Shown: positions 34,199-43,150 of the stretch, piece by piece
Position numbering within the stretch: position 1 is the first letter of the stretch
How the letters are laid out: each line of letters starts with the position of its first letter
Assembly: GCA_026705295.1 (NCBI GenBank)
Contig: JAPPBA010000177.1
Location: 1-43,893 of the forward strand
Direction: 5' to 3'
Source of the DNA: Candidatus Palauibacter australiensis
GTDB taxonomy: Bacteria; Gemmatimonadota; Gemmatimonadetes; Palauibacterales; Palauibacteraceae
DNA: 43,893 bases
Program-made: the position numbers and the translations under genes
The notes under the pieces: generated by a model
Told to the model about the DNA's origin: nothing
The model's database searches: none
The model's input: the letters and a program-made list of their open reading frames with translations, nothing else

Positions 34199-35401
34199 TC
34201 AAGGGGCTGTGAGGACGTCCGTCAGCGGGATCCACCTTCCGTCTTCGGCGCGGAAGAGCCGGAGCCCCTTCGACCCCCGGTGGTCGCTCGGCGTGAAGGT
34301 GAGCGGCGGCCCGGCGCCGCCCGTGTCGAGCCCGTCGATCGTCTCCAGCGCCTGCTTGATGTTCTCTCCGGTCGGTTCCTGTCCCGCATCGAGCACCCGC
34401 CGGATCCCCTCGACGAACACCGCCATCGTCCACCACCCCTGCGTGAACGCGTTCGTCTTCCCGGCGTAGTCCTCGCCCCGGGATTCGAGGTAGCCGCGGA
34501 TGTCCCGGACCCCCGGCACATCGTCCGTGAGCGGCGCCCAGGGGATCGCGCCGACCACCCCTTCGGCGGCGTCCTCCGCCAGTCGCCACAGGAGCGCGTT
34601 GGCGCACCAGTTCAGGCACACGAAGGTGGCGTCGATCCCCAACCCCTGCGCGTTCCGCAGGGCGACGGCCGCCGGCGCGGAGGTGTTCTGGAACACCACG
34701 TACGTCGCGCCCGACCGGCCGATGCGGGAGAACTCCGCCGTGTAGTCGGTCGCGCCGCGCGGCATCTCGTAGGGCGTGACGTCGACGCCGATCTCCCGCG
34801 CGTAGTCCTCCCCCCCCTGCACCCAGGGCGACAGGCCGAACGGGCTCGCGTTGTGCATGAACGCGACGCGCGCGTTCCCTTCCCCGCCGTTCGCCCGGTG
34901 GTCCTCCGCGATCCAGCGCAGGACGATCCGGAACTGGTCGCTGTAGCTCGTCGCCACGAGGAAGTTGTAGGGCGATTCGTGCGCGTCTCCGAGCACATGG
35001 GAGAGCGACGCCGACGAGAACGGGATGCGGTCCTCGGCGATCCTCAGCCGGAGCGCCTCCGTGTCGCCCGTCCCCCAGCCCATGAAAATGAGCGCGCCCT
35101 CCTGCACGAACTGCGTGTAGAGCTGCTCGGCCCGGTCGACCTGGTAGCCGTAGTCCTGGTAGATGAGCCGGACCGGGCGTCCCCCGACGCCGCCCCGCGC
35201 GTTGAGCCACTCGACGTGCCCCTGCACCCCCTCGGCGTAGTCGAGCCCCACGTCGGCCGTAGGACCCGTGAGGTCGAAGATGGCCGCGATCAGGATCTCG
35301 TTCTCCGCCCTCTCCCCCGAGCCCCCGCACGCGGCGAGCGCGACGGACAGGATGAGACCGCGCGCGGCGGCGGCCGTGAATGCGAATCGAGTGGCGCGCA
35401 T
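34199..35401 (-). CDS. ABC transporter substrate-binding lipoprotein (LivK/LivJ type)
   Basis: 400 residues. MRATRFAFTAAAARGLILS and the lipobox VALAAC form a lipoprotein signal, with the mature end at C26. The body is a type I periplasmic binding protein: ILIAAIFDLTGPTADVGLDY, then GGRPVRLIYQDYGYQ, and FTQGWWTMAVFVEGIRR near the end. The start at 35401 is set by the signal peptide. The frame continues upstream to 35506 only because it runs into the degenerate livM 3' fragment described below. It lies five bases before livF. The ligand is likely a hydrophobic amino acid or a small carboxylate. Confidence 0.9.
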   Translation of the reverse strand: MRATRFAFTAAAARGLILSVALAACGGSGERAENEILIAAIFDLTGPTADVGLDYAEGVQGHVEWLNARGGVGGRPVRLIYQDYGYQVDRAEQLYTQFVQEGALIFMGWGTGDTEALRLRIAEDRIPFSSASLSHVLGDAHESPYNFLVATSYSDQFRIVLRWIAEDHRANGGEGNARVAFMHNASPFGLSPWVQGGEDYAREIGVDVTPYEMPRGATDYTAEFSRIGRSGATYVVFQNTSAPAAVALRNAQGLGIDATFVCLNWCANALLWRLAEDAAEGVVGAIPWAPLTDDVPGVRDIRGYLESRGEDYAGKTNAFTQGWWTMAVFVEGIRRVLDAGQEPTGENIKQALETIDGLDTGGAGPPLTFTPSDHRGSKGLRLFRAEDGRWIPLTDVLTAP

Positions 35402-35449
35402 ATCCGGAGACCTCGTGATGTCGTGAAGTTCTGTCGACTTCGGAGCGAA

Positions 35450-35545
35450 TCGGCGACCCTTTGCGCGACGGTGCGCCAAGGGCTGCACGTAAAGACAGTC
35501 TTTCACGTTACGCCACGGTTTGGACAGACCATCGGGCCCGACGGC
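35450..35545 (-). pseudogene. Displaced, degenerate copy of the livM 3' end (far copy)
   Basis: Read on the minus strand in the livM frame, this gives GLSKPWRNVKDCLYVQPLA followed by HRRAKGR. Intact LivM has GLSKLWRNVKDYFYVWPFA and YRRGEGR. The position of the livM TGA is now CGA, so the frame reads on. About 30 codons are recognisable. It lies 48 bases upstream of the substrate-binding gene, where an intact livM would be expected in an uninterrupted operon. Confidence 0.85.
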
Positions 35546-35554
35546 GTCGGGTGT

Positions 35555-35983
35555 CTACTGAGATGGCGGGTCGGGCCGGTCCCGTTCGCGGATGAGGTCG
35601 GCAAGTTCCCGTATTTCTTCGCGTAGACCGCCGATCTCCTCACGCATCTCGGCGCGCAGATCGCCGATCTCTTCGCGCATCTCCTCGCGCAGATCGCGCA
35701 CTTCCGTCTCGAGGCCGGTCACACGCGCATCCAAACCGGAGACGCTCGCGACGAGTTGCACCTGCGTTTCTCCGAGCGTCACCGTCTGGTTCCACACAAG
35801 CGTGAAGGCCGCCATCACGACGGTGAGCGCGATCGTCAGCGAGAGTCCCAGGCTCCAGCGCGTGATCGTGATGCCATCGGCGGCTCCCGACGGTTGAACG
35901 CGGGCGCGGGACCGGCGGTCGTCGACGCGCGACCCACCGGCATCCGCTCCGGTTCGGGGTCCTTGCGCATTCGGCTTGGGCAT
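35555..35983 (-). CDS. Small membrane-anchored coiled-coil protein with 11-residue repeats
   Basis: 142 residues from the ATG at 35983, which has GAGGAG six bases upstream; an in-frame ATG at 36010 has no ribosome site. A polar, basic N-terminus (1-40) is followed by one transmembrane helix (about 44-65) and a coiled coil (about 75-132). The coil is built partly of 11-residue units LREEMREEIGD, LRAEMREEIGG and LREEIRELADL, encoded by 33-bp repeats near 35600-35700. It resembles the smaller protein at 12968-13195 in plan, in wording and in an upstream element placed at the same distance. Function unknown. It lies exactly between the two displaced livM 3' ends and so appears to be the cargo of one inserted block. 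Confidence 0.75.
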   Translation of the reverse strand: MPKPNAQGPRTGADAGGSRVDDRRSRARVQPSGAADGITITRWSLGLSLTIALTVVMAAFTLVWNQTVTLGETQVQLVASVSGLDARVTGLETEVRDLREEMREEIGDLRAEMREEIGGLREEIRELADLIRERDRPDPPSQ

Positions 35984-35998
35984 GGACGGCTCCTCGGA

Positions 35999-36060
35999 CG
36001 TTGATCTCAAACTAGCGGTTCGGGTTACCGCACCAAAGTCGCAAGGGAGATCAACGGAGC
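35999..36060. promoter_or_regulatory. 10-bp perfect inverted repeat and shared upstream element before the coiled-coil gene
   Basis: CGTTGATCTC (35999-36008) and GAGATCAACG (36047-36056) are perfect inverse complements. Between them GCGGT (36015-36019) and ACCGC (36027-36031) form a smaller hairpin. The right arm overlaps GATCAACGGAGC (36049-36060), the 12-mer also found before the gene at 12968-13195, again 66 bases from the start. It is probably an operator or structured leader. It accounts for part of the 331-base gap 35984-36314; the rest is the livM fragment and the LRR gene leader. Confidence 0.5.
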
Positions 36061-36091
36061 GTCAACGTGGCTGCCCAGGTCCGGGAGTCGA

Positions 36092-36232
36092 TCAGCGGCC
36101 CTCACCGCTGCAGTACGCGAAGGGCCAGACGTAGAAGTAGTCTTTCACGTTGCGCCACAGTTTGGACAGGCCTGCGGTCCCGAACATCGACCCCCGCACG
36201 CCGCGCAGGAGGGCCGCCACGCGCAGGCGTCT
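36092..36232 (-). pseudogene. Displaced copy of the livM 3' end (near copy, stop codon kept)
   Basis: From the stop codon (TGA at 36094-36092) up to about 36188 this is nearly identical to livM 42089-42185. The core AGACGTAGAAGTAGTC and what follows up to GGACAGG differs at a single base. It encodes GLSKLWRNVKDYFYVWPFAY then CSGEGR-stop. Beyond 36190 a 30-base (10-codon) in-frame deletion is followed by a further match (36196-36232 against 42223-42259, VAALL...V...FG). There is no start codon and no membrane domain, so it is a remnant, not a gene. Confidence 0.9.
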
Positions 36233-36314
36233 ACCCCCCGATTCTGGGAGGTTACAACTCCCGTTTCCCGCCTTACGTTGCTTGCCGAACACCCACTGCG
36301 GAGGCTCCCGGAAG

Positions 36315-39300
36315 ATGGTCAGACAGGGGTTGCGGCGCAGGCGCGCTCTCGGTGGCCGGGGACGGCTGAGGGCGGGCTTCACGCTCCCGGCCGCGGCCGT
36401 CGCCGGGATCGCCGCGCTGGTCCTTTCTTGCGGCGACGACGGCGTGGGGCCGACGCCGCCACCCCCACCGCCGCCGCCTCCTCCTCCCGCTCCCGTCGCC
36501 ACGACCGTAACGGTCAACCCCCGTTCGGTTTCGTTTACCGCCCTCGGGGAGACGGCCCGCTTCACCGCGGAGGTGCGCGATCAGAACGGGCAGGTGATGG
36601 CGGGGGCCGCGGTCGCGTGGACGAGCAGCGACGCCTCGGTCGCGACGGTGGACGCCTCCGGCGAAGTCACGGCGGCGGGGAACGGCACCGCCACGATCAC
36701 GGCAACGGCGGGATCGGCGTCGGGGAGCGCGGCCGTGACCGTGGCGTCGGACGCGGGCGACGATGACCGCGCCGCGCTGGAGGTGCTGTACCGGCGTACG
36801 GGCGGCCCCCGCTGGATCCGCGGGGCCAACTGGCTCACCGACGCGCCGCTCGATACCTGGCACGGCGTCGTGGTTGTCCAGGGGCGGGTGACGGAGTTGA
36901 CCCTGCGCGACAACGGTCTGGAGGGCTCTGTCCCGCCCCAACTCGGGAACCTCTCCCGGCTCGAACACCTGGACCTCTCCGAGAACGACCTGTCCGGCCC
37001 GGTCCCGCCGGAACTCGGGCGGCTCTCCCGCCTGGAGCGACTGGACTTCTACGACACCAACGTGACGGGCCGGATTCCGCCCGAACTCGGCAACCTCGCG
37101 AACCTAGCGATCCTGTCGCTCGACGAGAACAACCTGACGGGCTCCGTACCGAGATCGTTCCTCAAGCTCGATGCGTTGAGGACCTTCAGGATCGAGGGGA
37201 ACGACGGTCTTTGCGTACCCGGCGCCAGGGATTTCGTGACTTGGTGGCGATCCATCGACCGTACGGGGGGCCCGCTCTGCAGCGCGGCGGACGCTGCCGC
37301 GCTGGAAGCCCTCCATGAAGCAGCCGGCGGCGCGGGATGGACGAACTCCGGCGGCTGGCTCGAGGGAGAAACGGTCGGTGAGTGGTACGGCGTCACCGCC
37401 GACTCCATCGGCCGGGTGGCGGCTCTCGACCTTCGCCGCAACGGGCTGACCGGTCGGCTTCCGGGACAGTTGGGCGACTTGACGGCGATGACCCGGCTGA
37501 GACTGGACGGGAACGCGCTCTCCGGGTCATTGCCTCTGTCGTTGACGGCCGTCCCCCTCGAGGAGTTCCGGTACGCGGATACGGAATTGTGCGTTCCGGC
37601 CGACGCGGCGTTCCGTGAATGGCTGAGCGGCATCGCGACGCACGACACCGGGACGGAGTGCGGCCCCCTGTCGGAGCGCGACATTCTCGCCCGGCTGTAC
37701 GATGCCGCAGGTGGGCGGAGCTGGAGGAACGACGACAACTGGCTGACCCGGGCTCCACTCTCGGACTGGTACGGCGTTGAGACAGTCGACGGGCAGGTGT
37801 CCGCGCTGCGGCTGAGTGAGAATGGGCTTGCAGGCATAATCCCGGCCGAACTCGGAAGTCTTGCCGGCCTGCAAGTGCTCGAGTTGGCCGACAACGATCT
37901 TGCGGGCCGGCTGCCCGCGACGCTTGGACGTCTTCGTGGTTTGCGGAGCTTGGCCCTTCGCGGCAACCGACTGACGGGCCGCGTCCCGGTCGAACTCGGG
38001 AGCCTGTTCGGTCTGGAGCGGCTGGATCTGGCGGTTAACGCTCTGACAGGTCCGATCCCGGCGGAATTGGGGAACCTCTCGAACCTCCGCGACCTGGATC
38101 TGACTTCCAATTCGTTATCCGGTCCGATCCCGGACGCGTTGGGGGGCCTTTCCAGCCTGCAAACGCTGTATCTCGGTGACAACCGTTTGTCGGGCCGGAT
38201 CCCGGACGCGCTGGGGCGTCTTTCCCGCCTGGAGTCGCTGTATCTTGCGCGCAGCCGTCTGTCAGGCCCGATCCCGGCCGAGCTCGGCAATCTCTCGCGT
38301 CTGTTGTATCTGTATCTCGACGGCAACGCGCTATCGGGTCCGATCCCCGCCGAACTCGGCAACCTGTCGAGCTTGAACCAGTTGCACCTTCAAGCCAATG
38401 CCCTGTCCGGAGAGATCCCGGCCGAACTCGGGAACCTCCCGCGCCTGTCCGACCTGTATCTCCACGACAACGCGCTATCGGGTCCGATCCCCGCCGAACT
38501 CGGCAACCTTCGGAACCTGAACCGGCTGTACCTCCGCGCCAACAATCTTGCGGGTTCTCTCCCGCCCGAACTCGGGAACCTCTCGCGCCTTGCCGAACTT
38601 TCGGTCGCACTCAACGACCTGACGGGTTCGATACCAGCGGAATTCAGCGGCATGGTCGAGTTGGAGCGGCTCAACGTGGCGCACAACCCCGGGCTGTCCG
38701 GACCCCTGCCGGTCGACTTGACGGCCCTTCGAAGCCTGCAGGACTTCCAGGCCGCCGGAACGGATCTCTGCGCACCGGCCGGAGCCGACTTCCAGAGCTG
38801 GCTCAACGAAATCGGGAATCGCTGGGTGGCCACGTGCGCCGAAGTGGAGGGATCGGTCGCGTATCTGACGCAGGCCGTGCAGTCGCTCGGTTTCCCCGTC
38901 CCCCTGGTGGCCGGTGAAGCCGCGCTGCTCAGGGTGTTCGTAACCGCGCCGGCCGCCGCCGGAGAGCGCATCCCGCCGGTGCGGGCGCGTTTCTTTCAGG
39001 ACGGCTCGGAAACGTACGTGGCGGACATTCCGCAGCAGTCGGCCGCCATCCCGAGGAACATCGATGAAGGCTCGCTGCTCGCGTCCGCGAACGTCGAGAT
39101 CCCCGCGTCGGTGGTCGTGCCCGGGCTCGAGATGGTCGTCGAAATAGACCCGGACGGAACGCTGGATCCCGGCCTCGGCGTACAACGGAGGATTCCCGAG
39201 ACGGGCCGTACGGCGGTCGACGTGCGAACCCCGCCCGTCCTCGATCTCACGGTGATACCGTTCCTGTGGTCGGTGGCCCCGGATCGTTCGATCGTGGACC

Positions 39301-40307
39301 TCACGGCCAACCTGAGTGCGGACCACGACATCTTCCTCAATACTCGTACGCTGCTACCGGTCGGCGACCTCCAGGTCTCGGTGCACGAACCTGTGACGAC
39401 CGACAGAAACCGCGCCTTCGACCTGGTCGATGTGACGGAGATGATTCGGGTCCTCGAGGGCGCCACCGGCCACTACATGGGCATGATGACGGGCGAGTTG
39501 GGAAGCAGCTTCATCGGCGCCGCGCTGGAGCCGGGCAGATCTTCTTTCGCGATCTGGCGAACGGATGTCGTGGCCCACGAACTCGGGCACAACATGAGTC
39601 TCGCCCACGCGCCGTGCGGCGGCGCCGGGAGGCCCGACCCGGCGTTTCCGCAGCGCGACGGTTCGATCGGCGACTGGGGGTACGACTTCGTCACCGGTCG
39701 ATTGGTCCCGCCGACCGCGCCGGACTTCATGTCCTACTGCGGTCCCCCCGACTGGACGGGCAGCTTTCATTTCACCAAGGCGCTGCGCTTCCGGAGTTTC
39801 GACGACAGTGGCGCGGCCGCCGCCGTGGCGGGACCGGCCAGGTCGCTGCTGTTGTGGGGCGGCGTCGATTCCGCGGGGACACCGTTTCTGGAACCCGCCT
39901 TCGTGGTCGACGCGCCACCCGTGGCGCCGCGCGCCGCTGGCGACCACCAGCTTACCGGCTGGGCTGCGGACGGGCGCGAGTTGTTCTCGCTCAGCTTCGC
40001 CATGCCCGAAGTGGCGGACGGCGAGGGAGCGGGAAGTTTCGTCTTCGCCCTGCCCGTGAGGGCTGGCTGGGCCGCCGCCCTGGCGAGCATCGCGCTGTCC
40101 GGCCCCGGAGGCTCGGCCACGCTGGACGGAGCGACGGACCGCCCCATGGCCATCCTGCGCGACCCCCGGACCGGGCAGGTGCGCGCATTCCTGTCGGATC
40201 TCCCGGCCGCGGCCCGGACGGCGGACGCCGTGGCGCAGACCATCGGGCAGGGGCTGGAAGTGCTGTTCAGCCGAGGCATTCCCCCCGCGGATGCTTGGAG
40301 ACCGTGA
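36315..40307 (+). CDS. Large lipoprotein with Ig-like (Big_2), plant-type LRR and metzincin protease domains
   Basis: 1330 residues. A basic N-terminus and hydrophobic helix end in lipobox LVLSC, then a run of prolines. Residues about 62-148 are a bacterial Ig-like Big_2 domain (VAWTSSDASVATVDASGEVT). Residues about 155-810 are leucine-rich repeats of the 24-residue LTGPIPAELGNLSNLRDLDL type, in three blocks. Each block opens with an ALxxLYxxxGGxxW...NWL...WYGV cap. After a beta-rich linker comes a zinc protease: HELGHNMSLAH at 1088-1098 and Met-turn M1139 (DFMSYCGP). It is a surface-anchored adhesin-protease candidate. GGAGG lies ten bases upstream of the ATG. It sits inside the liv operon, opposite in direction, as part of an inserted block. 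Confidence 0.87.
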   Translation: MVRQGLRRRRALGGRGRLRAGFTLPAAAVAGIAALVLSCGDDGVGPTPPPPPPPPPPPAPVATTVTVNPRSVSFTALGETARFTAEVRDQNGQVMAGAAVAWTSSDASVATVDASGEVTAAGNGTATITATAGSASGSAAVTVASDAGDDDRAALEVLYRRTGGPRWIRGANWLTDAPLDTWHGVVVVQGRVTELTLRDNGLEGSVPPQLGNLSRLEHLDLSENDLSGPVPPELGRLSRLERLDFYDTNVTGRIPPELGNLANLAILSLDENNLTGSVPRSFLKLDALRTFRIEGNDGLCVPGARDFVTWWRSIDRTGGPLCSAADAAALEALHEAAGGAGWTNSGGWLEGETVGEWYGVTADSIGRVAALDLRRNGLTGRLPGQLGDLTAMTRLRLDGNALSGSLPLSLTAVPLEEFRYADTELCVPADAAFREWLSGIATHDTGTECGPLSERDILARLYDAAGGRSWRNDDNWLTRAPLSDWYGVETVDGQVSALRLSENGLAGIIPAELGSLAGLQVLELADNDLAGRLPATLGRLRGLRSLALRGNRLTGRVPVELGSLFGLERLDLAVNALTGPIPAELGNLSNLRDLDLTSNSLSGPIPDALGGLSSLQTLYLGDNRLSGRIPDALGRLSRLESLYLARSRLSGPIPAELGNLSRLLYLYLDGNALSGPIPAELGNLSSLNQLHLQANALSGEIPAELGNLPRLSDLYLHDNALSGPIPAELGNLRNLNRLYLRANNLAGSLPPELGNLSRLAELSVALNDLTGSIPAEFSGMVELERLNVAHNPGLSGPLPVDLTALRSLQDFQAAGTDLCAPAGADFQSWLNEIGNRWVATCAEVEGSVAYLTQAVQSLGFPVPLVAGEAALLRVFVTAPAAAGERIPPVRARFFQDGSETYVADIPQQSAAIPRNIDEGSLLASANVEIPASVVVPGLEMVVEIDPDGTLDPGLGVQRRIPETGRTAVDVRTPPVLDLTVIPFLWSVAPDRSIVDLTANLSADHDIFLNTRTLLPVGDLQVSVHEPVTTDRNRAFDLVDVTEMIRVLEGATGHYMGMMTGELGSSFIGAALEPGRSSFAIWRTDVVAHELGHNMSLAHAPCGGAGRPDPAFPQRDGSIGDWGYDFVTGRLVPPTAPDFMSYCGPPDWTGSFHFTKALRFRSFDDSGAAAAVAGPARSLLLWGGVDSAGTPFLEPAFVVDAPPVAPRAAGDHQLTGWAADGRELFSLSFAMPEVADGEGAGSFVFALPVRAGWAAALASIALSGPGGSATLDGATDRPMAILRDPRTGQVRAFLSDLPAAARTADAVAQTIGQGLEVLFSRGIPPADAWRP
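38324..38509 (+). repeat. 42-bp perfect repeat within the LRR array
   Basis: The same 42 bases, beginning CAACGCGCTATCGGGTCC, occur at 38324-38365 and at 38468-38509, 144 bases (two LRR units) apart. Neighbouring units are less alike at the DNA level, which points to a recent duplication or gene conversion. Confidence 0.85.
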
Positions 40308-40456
40308 ACCCGCACTGAGATTGAGAGGGCCATCGACTCGTCCACATTCGCCCGTATATCTTGTTCCGCCCGATAGGGACTATCCCGACTCCTGGTCGAG
40401 CGCTGAACGACGGGGCTTGAACATCGCCTGACGGAGAAGACAGGAGGCTTGAGGCT

Positions 40457-41566
40457 ATGACCAGCATCGACCGTGATTTCGGTGATCTTGCCGTTATGCG
40501 CGTGCCCGTCAAGCGAGCTGCCTACAGCCGTCGCACCGCGTGGACAATGGCGATCCTGGCCGAACTCGCCTACACGCCGTTCGACGAGGAGTCCGAGCAG
40601 CACATTCTGGATCTCGCGGAGGAACTTGCGACGCTGACGGACCGCGAAAGGATCGCCGATCGGTTGGTAAAGTTTCGGAAGACGCTCCGCGGATTCGATG
40701 GCGCGCCGGAAGCAGAGCGCAGGAATCAGAAGCTTCGGGCGGCGCTTGCCTGCGGCGGATTCCAATTGGTGGGTTCGGTCCTGTACGATCCCGGGACGGA
40801 CACGCAGGGGTTCGTCGCGGCGCGGCGCGACGACGAAGGCACCGGTATGGCAGTGATCTGCTTTCGCGGCACCACCCGGATCCGAGACTGGATGACGAAT
40901 CTGGATATCGCGCCGCGGTCGATCGAGAACCCGAGGACTGGCGCGCCCATCGGCAACATGCATAAGGGGTTCCACAACGCCTACCGCTCCGTGCACGACC
41001 AGATCGGCGAGCGCCTCAAAGGTCTCGAGGACCTGCCGCTCTATATCACGGGCCACTCCCTGGGCGGAGCGCTCGCCGTCGTCGCGACCTGGTATCAGAG
41101 TTCGCAACGCCTGGCTGCCTGCTACACGTTCGGCGCGCCCCGCGTGGGAGACCAGGGCTTGATCGACCGGTTCAAGACGCCGATCTACCGGATCGTAAAC
41201 GGTCCGGATCCGGTCTCGTTAGTGCCACCGGCTGGCTTCGGACTCGAGATCGTCAAAGCCATATTCCGTGTTCTGGGAGTCTTCCTGCCGTTTTGGGGAT
41301 GGGCAGCGTGGGTCACGGACAAGCTCATTCGCAATCAGCGGTTCCGGCACTACGGATACATGCGATATCTGACGGTGGCGAAACCCGGACCGGACGGGAG
41401 TTACCCGGGGCTTCGACTGGAGTTCGCTTTATCTACGCCCGATCGCCTGGCCCGGTTCATCAGGCTGCGAACATCGGGAACGGGAGACCGCATCGACAAG
41501 TACCATGACATTGCCCGATACCGAAACAAGCTGCGCGCTCATGCGCTGAGGGCGAACCCGCCTTAG
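40457..41566 (+). CDS. Class 3 lipase (alpha/beta hydrolase)
   Basis: 369 residues. Oxyanion-site FRGTT (136-140), nucleophile S201 in ITGHSLGGALA, acid D251 (NGPDPVSLVPP) and a likely catalytic H350 (KYHDIARY) make up a class 3 (fungal-type) triacylglycerol lipase core. There is no signal peptide. A hydrophobic patch (about 263-290, IFRVLGVFLPFWGWAAWV) may attach it to membranes. AGGAGG lies nine bases before the ATG. Its stop overlaps that of the convergent membrane-protein gene by four bases. It lies inside the interrupted liv operon and is somewhat less GC-rich than the flanking liv genes. Phospholipids or triglycerides are possible substrates. Confidence 0.87.
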   Translation: MTSIDRDFGDLAVMRVPVKRAAYSRRTAWTMAILAELAYTPFDEESEQHILDLAEELATLTDRERIADRLVKFRKTLRGFDGAPEAERRNQKLRAALACGGFQLVGSVLYDPGTDTQGFVAARRDDEGTGMAVICFRGTTRIRDWMTNLDIAPRSIENPRTGAPIGNMHKGFHNAYRSVHDQIGERLKGLEDLPLYITGHSLGGALAVVATWYQSSQRLAACYTFGAPRVGDQGLIDRFKTPIYRIVNGPDPVSLVPPAGFGLEIVKAIFRVLGVFLPFWGWAAWVTDKLIRNQRFRHYGYMRYLTVAKPGPDGSYPGLRLEFALSTPDRLARFIRLRTSGTGDRIDKYHDIARYRNKLRAHALRANPP

Positions 41567-41940
41567 GGCCGGCGCGACGTTCCTGTCTTCGTCTCGTCGG
41601 TGGCACCTGCTTCGCGCCGACTACGGGACCCGAACCAGAACCCGATTATTGGGCCGATAACCGCAACGACATAAGAAAAGACGTCCTTCGCCTGGTCATA
41701 TTGAGCCATAAATAGAAAGGAGATGATCAAAACCCCGGCCATCAATGCGAAGGTCCACGCCATTATGTGCGTGACGATGGGCTGAACCATCTCTCTCCGG
41801 AATACTGTTTCAAAACCAGTCCTCTTGCCGGATTCCGGGGGTGCGGTCAATCGAAGGACCAACTGACCTAACCCGATGACCAGAACCAGGATCAGGCCTG
41901 AAATCAAGAGGGGCCACCATTCGCCGAGCCATCCTGACAT
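41563..41940 (-). CDS. Three-helix membrane protein of unknown function
   Basis: 125 residues with three predicted transmembrane helices: about 10-30 (LLISGLILVLVIGLGQLVL), 58-80 (MAWTFALMAGVLIISFLFMA) and 88-105 (FSYVVAVIGPIIGFWFGS). The tail is short and polar. GAGGAG eight bases upstream supports the ATG at 41940. I recognise no family; the last helix with GFWFGSR resembles small holin-like or phage-shock-type membrane proteins only loosely. The region has more A/T than its surroundings. It is convergent with the lipase (4-bp stop overlap) and lies immediately downstream of livM, in the same direction. Confidence 0.72.
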   Translation of the reverse strand: MSGWLGEWWPLLISGLILVLVIGLGQLVLRLTAPPESGKRTGFETVFRREMVQPIVTHIMAWTFALMAGVLIISFLFMAQYDQAKDVFSYVVAVIGPIIGFWFGSRSRREAGATDETKTGTSRRP

Positions 41941-42025
41941 TCGTCCGTCTCCTCGTCAAACCTTGGAGCAATAGTCGTTGGCGCTCCCAAGATGTGACGT
42001 GAATCTTTTCATGGCAAGTCGTCGC

Positions 42026-42077
42026 GTAAGCGGCTATAACGCTTACACTCCAGCATTCCCCGCTGCGAAGCCTGGAG
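42026..42077. terminator. Two hairpins just downstream of livM
   Basis: GTAAGCG (42026-42032) and CGCTTAC (42040-42046) form a perfect 7-bp stem with a 7-base loop. Next to it CTCCAG (42048-42053) and CTGGAG (42072-42077) form a second, longer-looped pair. They lie 12 to 63 bases past the livM stop, where a terminator, or the boundary of an inserted block, would be expected. The 148-base gap 41941-42088 holds nothing else I can name. Confidence 0.4.
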
Positions 42078-42088
42078 CGCGAAAGACC

Positions 42089-43150
42089 TCAGCGGCCTTC
42101 GCCGCGGCGGTAGGCGAAAGGCCAGACGTAGAAGTAGTCCTTCACGTTGCGCCACAGTTTGGACAGGCCCTCGGGCTCGAACACCAGGAAGAGGATGATG
42201 ACGAGCCCGAACGCCGCCTGCTGCACGCTGGGCAGGAGGGCCGCGACCGCCGGCGCCGACTGTTGCAGTTCCCGTCCCGCCGTCGCGATCATGGCCGGGA
42301 GGAGGGTGATGAGCGCCGCCCCGAACAGCGAGCCGCGGATCGTCCCCAGTCCTCCCACGATGATCATGGCGAGGTAAAGGACGCTGGTCTCGAGCGTGAA
42401 GCGCTCCCACGAGATGATGTTGCGGTAGTACGCGGTGAGGGCGCCGGCGAGCCCCACGAAGAACGACGAGGTCGCGAAGGCCAGGAGCTTGGTCCCGAAC
42501 ACGTTCACGCCGATGACGCTCGCGGCGATGTCCTGGTCGCGGACGGCGACGAAGGAGCGGCCGATGCGGGAGCGGAAGAGGTTCGCGGTGAAGAGCGCCG
42601 TGGCGCCGGCCAGGGCGATGCCGAGCCAGTAGAAGCCGAAGTCCGTGTTCAGGCGCTGGCCGAACAGCCGCGGGGCCGGGACGACGACCGCTTCGACGCC
42701 TCCGGTGAGCGCGGGCCAGTGCGTGACGACCCATTCGACGATCTCCTGGGCGGCCAGCGTGGAGATCGCCAGGTAGAGCCCCTTGAGCCGCAGCGAGGGG
42801 AGGCCGAAGAAGACCCCCACCGCCGCCGTCGCGAAGCAGGCGGCCACGATGCTCACGCCCCAGGGCAGGCCCAGCCTCAGCGTGAGGAGCGCGGAGGTGT
42901 ACGCCCCGACGGCCATGAAGGCGCCCTGCCCCAGCGAGACCTGCCCGGTGTAGCCGACGAGGATGTTCAGCCCCAGCGCGCCGATCGTGGCGATCGCGAT
43001 CTGGTTCGCGAGGTTGAGCCAGTAGGGCGACGCGAGGAACGGGAAGACGAGGAGCGCCGCCGCGAACAGGCCGAGCCGGATGCGCTCCGCCGGCACGCGC
43101 CGGAGCCCCATGTCCGTTCGATAGTCCGTGTGAAAGACGCCGCTCTCCAC
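42089..43150 (-). CDS. livM: Branched-chain amino acid-type ABC permease LivM
   Basis: 353 residues with about ten hydrophobic segments. Family words are NILVGYTGQVSLGQGAFMAV, SLRLKGLYLAISTLAAQEIV, GRSFVAVRDQDIAASVIGVN (the cytoplasmic coupling loop that meets the ATPase) and MIIVGGLGTIRGSLFGA. The C-terminal EPEGLSKLWRNVKDYFYVWP is the part that recurs twice downstream as displaced fragments. The start is a GTG with AGGAG six bases upstream, nine bases after the livH stop. With LivH it forms the membrane channel. It is separated from its expected downstream partner, the substrate-binding gene, by about 6.7 kb of unrelated genes. Confidence 0.93.
   Translation of the reverse strand: MESGVFHTDYRTDMGLRRVPAERIRLGLFAAALLVFPFLASPYWLNLANQIAIATIGALGLNILVGYTGQVSLGQGAFMAVGAYTSALLTLRLGLPWGVSIVAACFATAAVGVFFGLPSLRLKGLYLAISTLAAQEIVEWVVTHWPALTGGVEAVVVPAPRLFGQRLNTDFGFYWLGIALAGATALFTANLFRSRIGRSFVAVRDQDIAASVIGVNVFGTKLLAFATSSFFVGLAGALTAYYRNIISWERFTLETSVLYLAMIIVGGLGTIRGSLFGAALITLLPAMIATAGRELQQSAPAVAALLPSVQQAAFGLVIILFLVFEPEGLSKLWRNVKDYFYVWPFAYRRGEGR

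Follow-up and report, generated by a model that had tools for sequence, protein, structure and literature searches.

The 3' end of livM is an insertion point in Candidatus Palauibacter, a genus of Gemmatimonadota. In the window, by which we mean the whole 43,893-nucleotide stretch analysed here (contig C177 of a 3.58-Mb Candidatus Palauibacter assembly), two blocks of genes separate livM from the gene for a substrate-binding protein, and each block is bounded by a displaced copy of the livM 3' end. Related genomes have both empty and filled sites, insertions have occurred sequentially, and the intact livM of filled sites carries non-native letters in its tail while the outermost copies carry native ones. 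We consider it somewhat probable that this pattern reflects recurrent insertion at the livM 3' end, in which a livM-like tail carried by the incoming unit recombines with the resident gene, the native tail is stranded, and successive blocks stack.

Three copies of the livM 3' end

A preliminary description of this DNA had read three copies of the livM end, and a repeat search, tblastn, a profile search and alignment all recover them; the case for them is better than that description had made it. The features of the region are as follows.

34199..35401, minus strand: substrate-binding protein gene (PF13458), the native downstream neighbour, which adjoins livM in empty relatives
35402..35449, minus strand: native 48-bp livM/substrate-binding intergenic sequence, the same as in the empty sites of relatives
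35450..35545, minus strand: displaced livM end, copy 3; stop lost, native at four diagnostic sites (repeats, profile, alignment)
35555..35983, minus strand: 142-aa ORF, older-block cargo, with a single hydrophobic stretch (gene scan; no Pfam match)
36092..36232, minus strand: displaced livM end, copy 2; TGA present, about 30 bp absent (repeats, profile, alignment)
36315..40307, plus strand: lipoprotein with Big_2, LRR and M66-like metzincin domains, cargo (Pfam: Big_2, LRR, Peptidase_M66)
40457..41566, plus strand: class 3 lipase, cargo (PF01764, E=2.8e-26)
41563..41940, minus strand: 125-aa ORF at the livM-proximal end of the newer block (ORF list; no Pfam match)
42089..43150, minus strand: livM, intact, the target gene (PF02653); its last 50-70 bp have non-native synonymous letters
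42140..42167, minus strand: putative crossover zone within livM (-78 to -51), where native sequence would switch to the incoming tail (diagnostic sites, 12 genomes)

With livM as a tblastn query, the two displaced fragments are found at E=2e-12 and 6e-7, and against a profile that was itself built with these copies they score 1.8e-26 and 5.1e-23. Copy 2 (36092-36186) is 88% identical to the end of the intact gene (42089-42183), for which the earlier wording of "almost identical" was generous, although it does keep its TGA; alignment bears out the reported gap of about 30 bp of livM. An extra piece of the repeat pairs 36179-36220 with 42206-42247 at 79% identity. Copy 3 (35450-35544) had been described as diverged and without its stop, and it is indeed the more decayed of the two, with 73% identity to copy 2 and CGA where TGA stood. 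The 48 bp from 35449 to the ATG of the substrate-binding gene (35401) equal the native intergenic sequence of relatives (TGATCGCTCCGAAGTCGG...GAGGTCTCCGGATATG), so that copy 3 stands at the distance expected of a native livM, as had been proposed.

Homology between the remnants and livM beyond about -175 was no better in Palauibacter than in shuffled controls and is not claimed. A 30-bp gap shared by three distal fragments was dropped as proof of a single element-borne livM mimic, because it sits between imperfect direct repeats, GTTCGGGCTC and GTTCGAGCCC, at which recurrent slippage is possible.

The cargo is as first described, with the LRR-metzincin lipoprotein, the lipase and the 125-aa ORF in the newer block and the 142-aa ORF in the older one. 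The lipoprotein carries an HExxHxxxxxH motif. Neither a tRNA nor an Rfam family was found at the livM insertion sites, and livM-like tails were absent from the phage records and IMG/VR contigs searched. Plasmid matches to the livM tail proved to be ordinary livM genes of Alphaproteobacteria and others.

For a background estimate, we scanned 4141 ORF tails (mostly shadow frames) in 866 kb of sampled sequence for copies lying 0.25-16 kb downstream. Tail-limited repeats were found only for livM and for one toxin-antitoxin remnant, and this near absence excludes chance as the source of the livM copies. Most other repeated gene tails in this sample turned out to be shadow frames or to belong to whole-gene paralogues. 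In the toxin-antitoxin case, the tail of a VapB-like antitoxin is repeated 4.8 kb apart (G010:C28, about 141446 and 146289; 85% over 145 bp) and is probably what remains of a second toxin-antitoxin pair.

Empty and filled sites in the genus

The genus includes Candidatus Palauibacter rhopaloidicola, P. denitrificans and P. poriticola, all sponge- and coral-type Gemmatimonadota, and belongs to an order described previously (PMC10469786). livM is present in 15 of 17 genus genomes, each with a readable junction. Eleven of the 15 have the arrangement that the preliminary description had suggested looking for, with livM followed after ~40-50 bp (about 48) by the substrate-binding gene. Since the two genes are commonly this close in loci of Acidobacteriota and Chloroflexota as well, the empty site is the ancestral state.

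The remaining four junctions are occupied: those of the window, G003 (Ca. P. rhopaloidicola), G005 and G015. The livM-lipase-LRR arrangement of the window recurs in G003, where 5.5 kb are 96.8% identical. G003 has additional cargo beside the substrate-binding gene, and its LRR lipoprotein gene, 93-97% identical to that of the window, is split by an integrase element. A separate 3.3-kb insert in G005 encodes an M15-like peptidase and two ORFs without a Pfam match, and the junction of G015 holds about 2.6 kb of weakly coding sequence. Three of the four filled junctions (those of the window, G003 and G005) have a decayed livM end adjoining the substrate-binding gene; in G015, as in several inserts of the second family described below, a livM remnant was sought and none was recognisable.

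By livM divergence, G005 clusters with the empty genomes G014, G016 and G008; for the window and G003, the empty G002, G007, G009, G010 and G011 are closer. This grouping indicates at least three independent events in the genus. Their cargo differs, as the preliminary description had suggested checking.

The genomes compared are all draft or binned assemblies, and G003 is broken inside its insert, as might be expected if repeats had been misjoined in a metagenome-assembled genome. Such an artefact is very improbable: the window arrangement recurs in the separate G003 assembly, and the same architecture is found in G005 and in L132, L136 and L150 of the second family.

Which livM tail is probably the new one

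The distribution of sequence changes along livM points to the intact gene as the bearer of the new end. Over the final 72 bp of livM, eight empty genomes show 2 variable sites against 9.7 expected. Private changes in these 72 bp stand at 0/81 in the eight empty genomes and 10/48 in the occupied lineages (Fisher p=2.7e-5), the ten comprising four shared by the window and G003, three in G005 and three in G015. The letters of the window livM at -52, -37, -25 and -13 differ from those of all empty relatives. The outermost fragments of the window (copy 3) and G003 have the native letter at each of the four positions that set apart the livM of the same genome, and diagnostic sites in 12 genomes map the putative junction between native and incoming sequence to livM -78 to -51.

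The private changes in the livM tail of occupied lineages, together with native letters on the outermost copies, make it most likely from sequence comparison that livM received a new end with the insert and that its native tail was displaced outward. We infer replacement of the tail as opposed to mere mutation. Relaxed constraint after insertion could mimic part of the tail changes, but by itself it would not account for their being limited to the tail.

The same comparison reveals about 70 bp (42089-42160 in the window, and the same place in eight empty relatives) that are almost frozen at synonymous sites in empty-site genomes. Either an attachment site or a signal acting in cis on the substrate-binding gene could lie in this stretch.

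Stacked modules in a second family

Loci of another Gemmatimonadota family fall into two groups: in six, a conserved gene starts within 81-90 bp of livM, and about fourteen have intervening genes that begin from a few to some tens of bases past the livM stop. The intervening modules include AlbA_2 (Schlafen-type), PIN/antitoxin, AAA_14-DUF4143 (PADLOC PDC-S01) and a type I-E cas operon, and their order changes from locus to locus. The PIN/antitoxin module lies directly at livM in L134 (+3 to +782), whereas in L136 it occupies +1467 to +2242, with an AlbA_2 module and a livM remnant between it and livM. Likewise, the leader of the I-E cas operon touches livM in L150 and sits behind AlbA_2 and a livM remnant in L132. 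The AAA_14 module is near livM in L144 and L147 and, in L150, lies behind AlbA_2 and a 33-bp repeat of the livM terminus, found at +2.76 kb. These three before/after pairs around livM remnants indicate that blocks stack at livM and that older ones are pushed outward. In L147, a native-type livM end stands just ahead of the next gene, and the locus's own livM ends in altered sequence.

The remnants are 5'-truncated livM, and that of L132 reaches about 260 bp upstream of the stop, as would be expected if tandem livM duplicates had eroded in place to their 3' ends and other genes had moved between them later; the shared 30-bp deletion is likewise explicable by slippage between the direct repeats noted above. 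This origin is nevertheless improbable, because a full-length second livM is absent from all loci read and module order is permuted with remnants in between. It also sits poorly with the cargo differences among independent lineages and with the clustering of changes in the tail of the intact livM in occupied lineages.

The livM end is thus a hypervariable insertion point, rich in defence genes, in a phylum that has been little studied, and it lies at a conserved metabolic gene, not at a tRNA. From the sequential before/after pairs one can read the order in which genes were acquired.

Two further features of these loci were seen. Genes for type I-E Cas3e, Cas8e and Cas7e occupy the livM insertion point of a sponge-associated Gemmatimonadota (L132:12821-19058), with only the start of the operon present in L150. 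Where they meet native sequence, several inserts (L134, L141, L144, L147 and L151) resemble one another in a stretch, (T)TATTACGAGAAATCA...GGGGCA, that may represent a common promoter or the end of a module.

Recombinases and the route of insertion

The preliminary description had noted no integrase in the window and had attributed the copies to integrative elements. The first point holds for the insert ORFs, and the second holds in part. Repeated insertion, rebuilding of the gene end, outward displacement and stacking are borne out by relatives, but a recombinase-bearing element is not: no recombinase domain was found in the scanned insert ORFs of the window, G005 and the second-family modules, a negative that covers the identified insert genes of two families and leaves out the insert contents of L147 and G015. 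The only integrase seen within an insert is that of G003, in a separate element. We rejected this tyrosine integrase as the culprit, as its element sits inside the LRR gene with a core of its own (GTTCCGCCCGAACTCGGCA). Integrases are abundant in the genus and none could be linked to livM, nor was a related element recognised that would provide a recombinase in trans.

The livM-end repeat is found at both boundaries in the window, G003, G005, L132, L136, L147 and L150 and was unseen in G015 and several others. Remnants measure 33 bp in L150, about 90 bp in the window (copy 3) and G005, about 140-175 bp in the window (copy 2) and G003, and about 260 bp in L132. The junctions fit livM -78 to -51, while remnant length varies from 33 to about 260 bp.

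Under the explanation that we favour, an incoming DNA unit bearing its own livM-like 3' end would recombine with the tail of the chromosomal livM. The crossover would fuse livM to the unit's tail, leaving the gene intact with the cargo next to it, and the original tail would be left at the far side, beside the native downstream gene. Later events would use the intact copy, placing the newest block at livM and the oldest outermost. A site-specific recombinase, either supplied in trans or lost later, may carry out the crossover, in the manner of cis-mobilizable islands that accrete at one gene end. Against this explanation, the identified inserts yielded no recombinase, remnant lengths differ where one fixed core is expected, G015 and several second-family inserts have no recognisable remnant, the tail changes could in part be due to relaxed constraint, and phage and IMG/VR records gave no livM-like tail.

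Homologous integration is a real though lesser possibility. Here, donor DNA in which cargo accompanies the terminal few hundred bases of a related livM would enter by a single crossover or, in a variant that we weigh jointly with it, by pairing at livM with illegitimate joining at the other end. A truncated second livM end would then be a by-product, with no need for a dedicated recombinase, and livM would recur as the site because related donors already have cargo behind it. Homology-facilitated illegitimate recombination, a process known in bacteria, could leave cargo together with a fresh livM end and a truncated copy of the former one (PMC3240628). The lack of a recombinase in the identified inserts and the variable remnant length keep homologous integration a live rival, and the same modules do occur behind livM in related genomes, so that donors with livM homology exist. 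It leaves unexplained, however, why insertions affect this junction when almost no other gene tail in 866 kb shows the pattern, and why blocks with different cargo start no more than a few bases from the livM stop; a repeated return to one site would be unexpected without donor homology. The data fit a trans-acting recombinase with later decay of the remnants, and they fit homologous integration, whether by single crossover or one-sided. We rank the former somewhat above the latter because one site is reused and the pattern is nearly absent elsewhere. The recombinase-free blocks make it testable which system moves small gene modules into the end of one gene.

Relation to known systems

CIMEs and ICEs accrete at gene 3' ends, for example at fda in Streptococcus thermophilus. 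As in that process, gene-end repeats flank cargo free of recombination genes, insertions stack at one gene end, and a functional end is kept. The CIME-type traits found here are att-like flanks without recombination genes and tandem stacking (two blocks in the window; AlbA_2 before the PIN, CRISPR and AAA_14 modules). The livM system differs in its target, in its long and variable remnants, and in that no integrase-bearing partner has been found. The livM case is best called a variant of gene-end accretion with livM as target and recombinase-free modules as cargo, its closest kind being integrase-less islands at a gene 3' end.

In integron cassette arrays, new units enter at one end and order reflects age. 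One-ended entry and age order are likewise seen at livM, but the repeats here are livM ends and the scanned inserts contain no integron integrase. A more speculative reading, which we hold to be rather unlikely as a whole, is that small recombinase-free modules (defence-type ATPases, toxin-antitoxin, CRISPR and secreted proteins) are loaded at the livM 3' end from one side, much as in an integron, by a recombination system, trans-acting or unknown, with the last ~70 bp as its recognition site. If true, it would account for the near-frozen synonymous sites of the livM tail in empty genomes.

Conserved protein genes are also targeted by the SGI1 island, at the 3' end of trmE (PMC8409611), and by dusA islands, which are defined by their own integrase and use a site at the dusA 5' end (PMC4482086); the livM inserts have no integrase found and lie at a 3' end. 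Of the traits of integrase islands, boundary repeats, empty relatives and a functional livM end are found at livM, and an element-encoded recombinase is not. A mobile element in Vibrio cholerae also supplies, with the incoming DNA, a substitute for the affected part of a housekeeping gene, recA; unlike the livM units, it carries a whole recA, an integrase and inverted repeats, and it disrupts the resident gene (PMC4405046).

Integrases at LRR genes

Apart from livM, a sub-family of P4-like tyrosine integrases (PF00589, PF13356) was seen in L066 (13880-15238), L090, L091, L103 and L095 (G000:C132). These integrases sit 163-189 bp downstream of a core, CCGCCCGAACTCGGCAC. The core is found without a recognisable LRR in L092. 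In G003, G058 and two G007 loci, it falls on the codons for PPELG within a repeat of an LRR gene, the LRR genes being different ones, and in L095, which belongs to the window's own genome, the same core lies beside LRR-like sequence read from the raw DNA. Elements at the PPELG core bring a short new C-terminus (e.g., THLPA-stop), and LRR repeat codons seem to be the attachment site of this sub-family.
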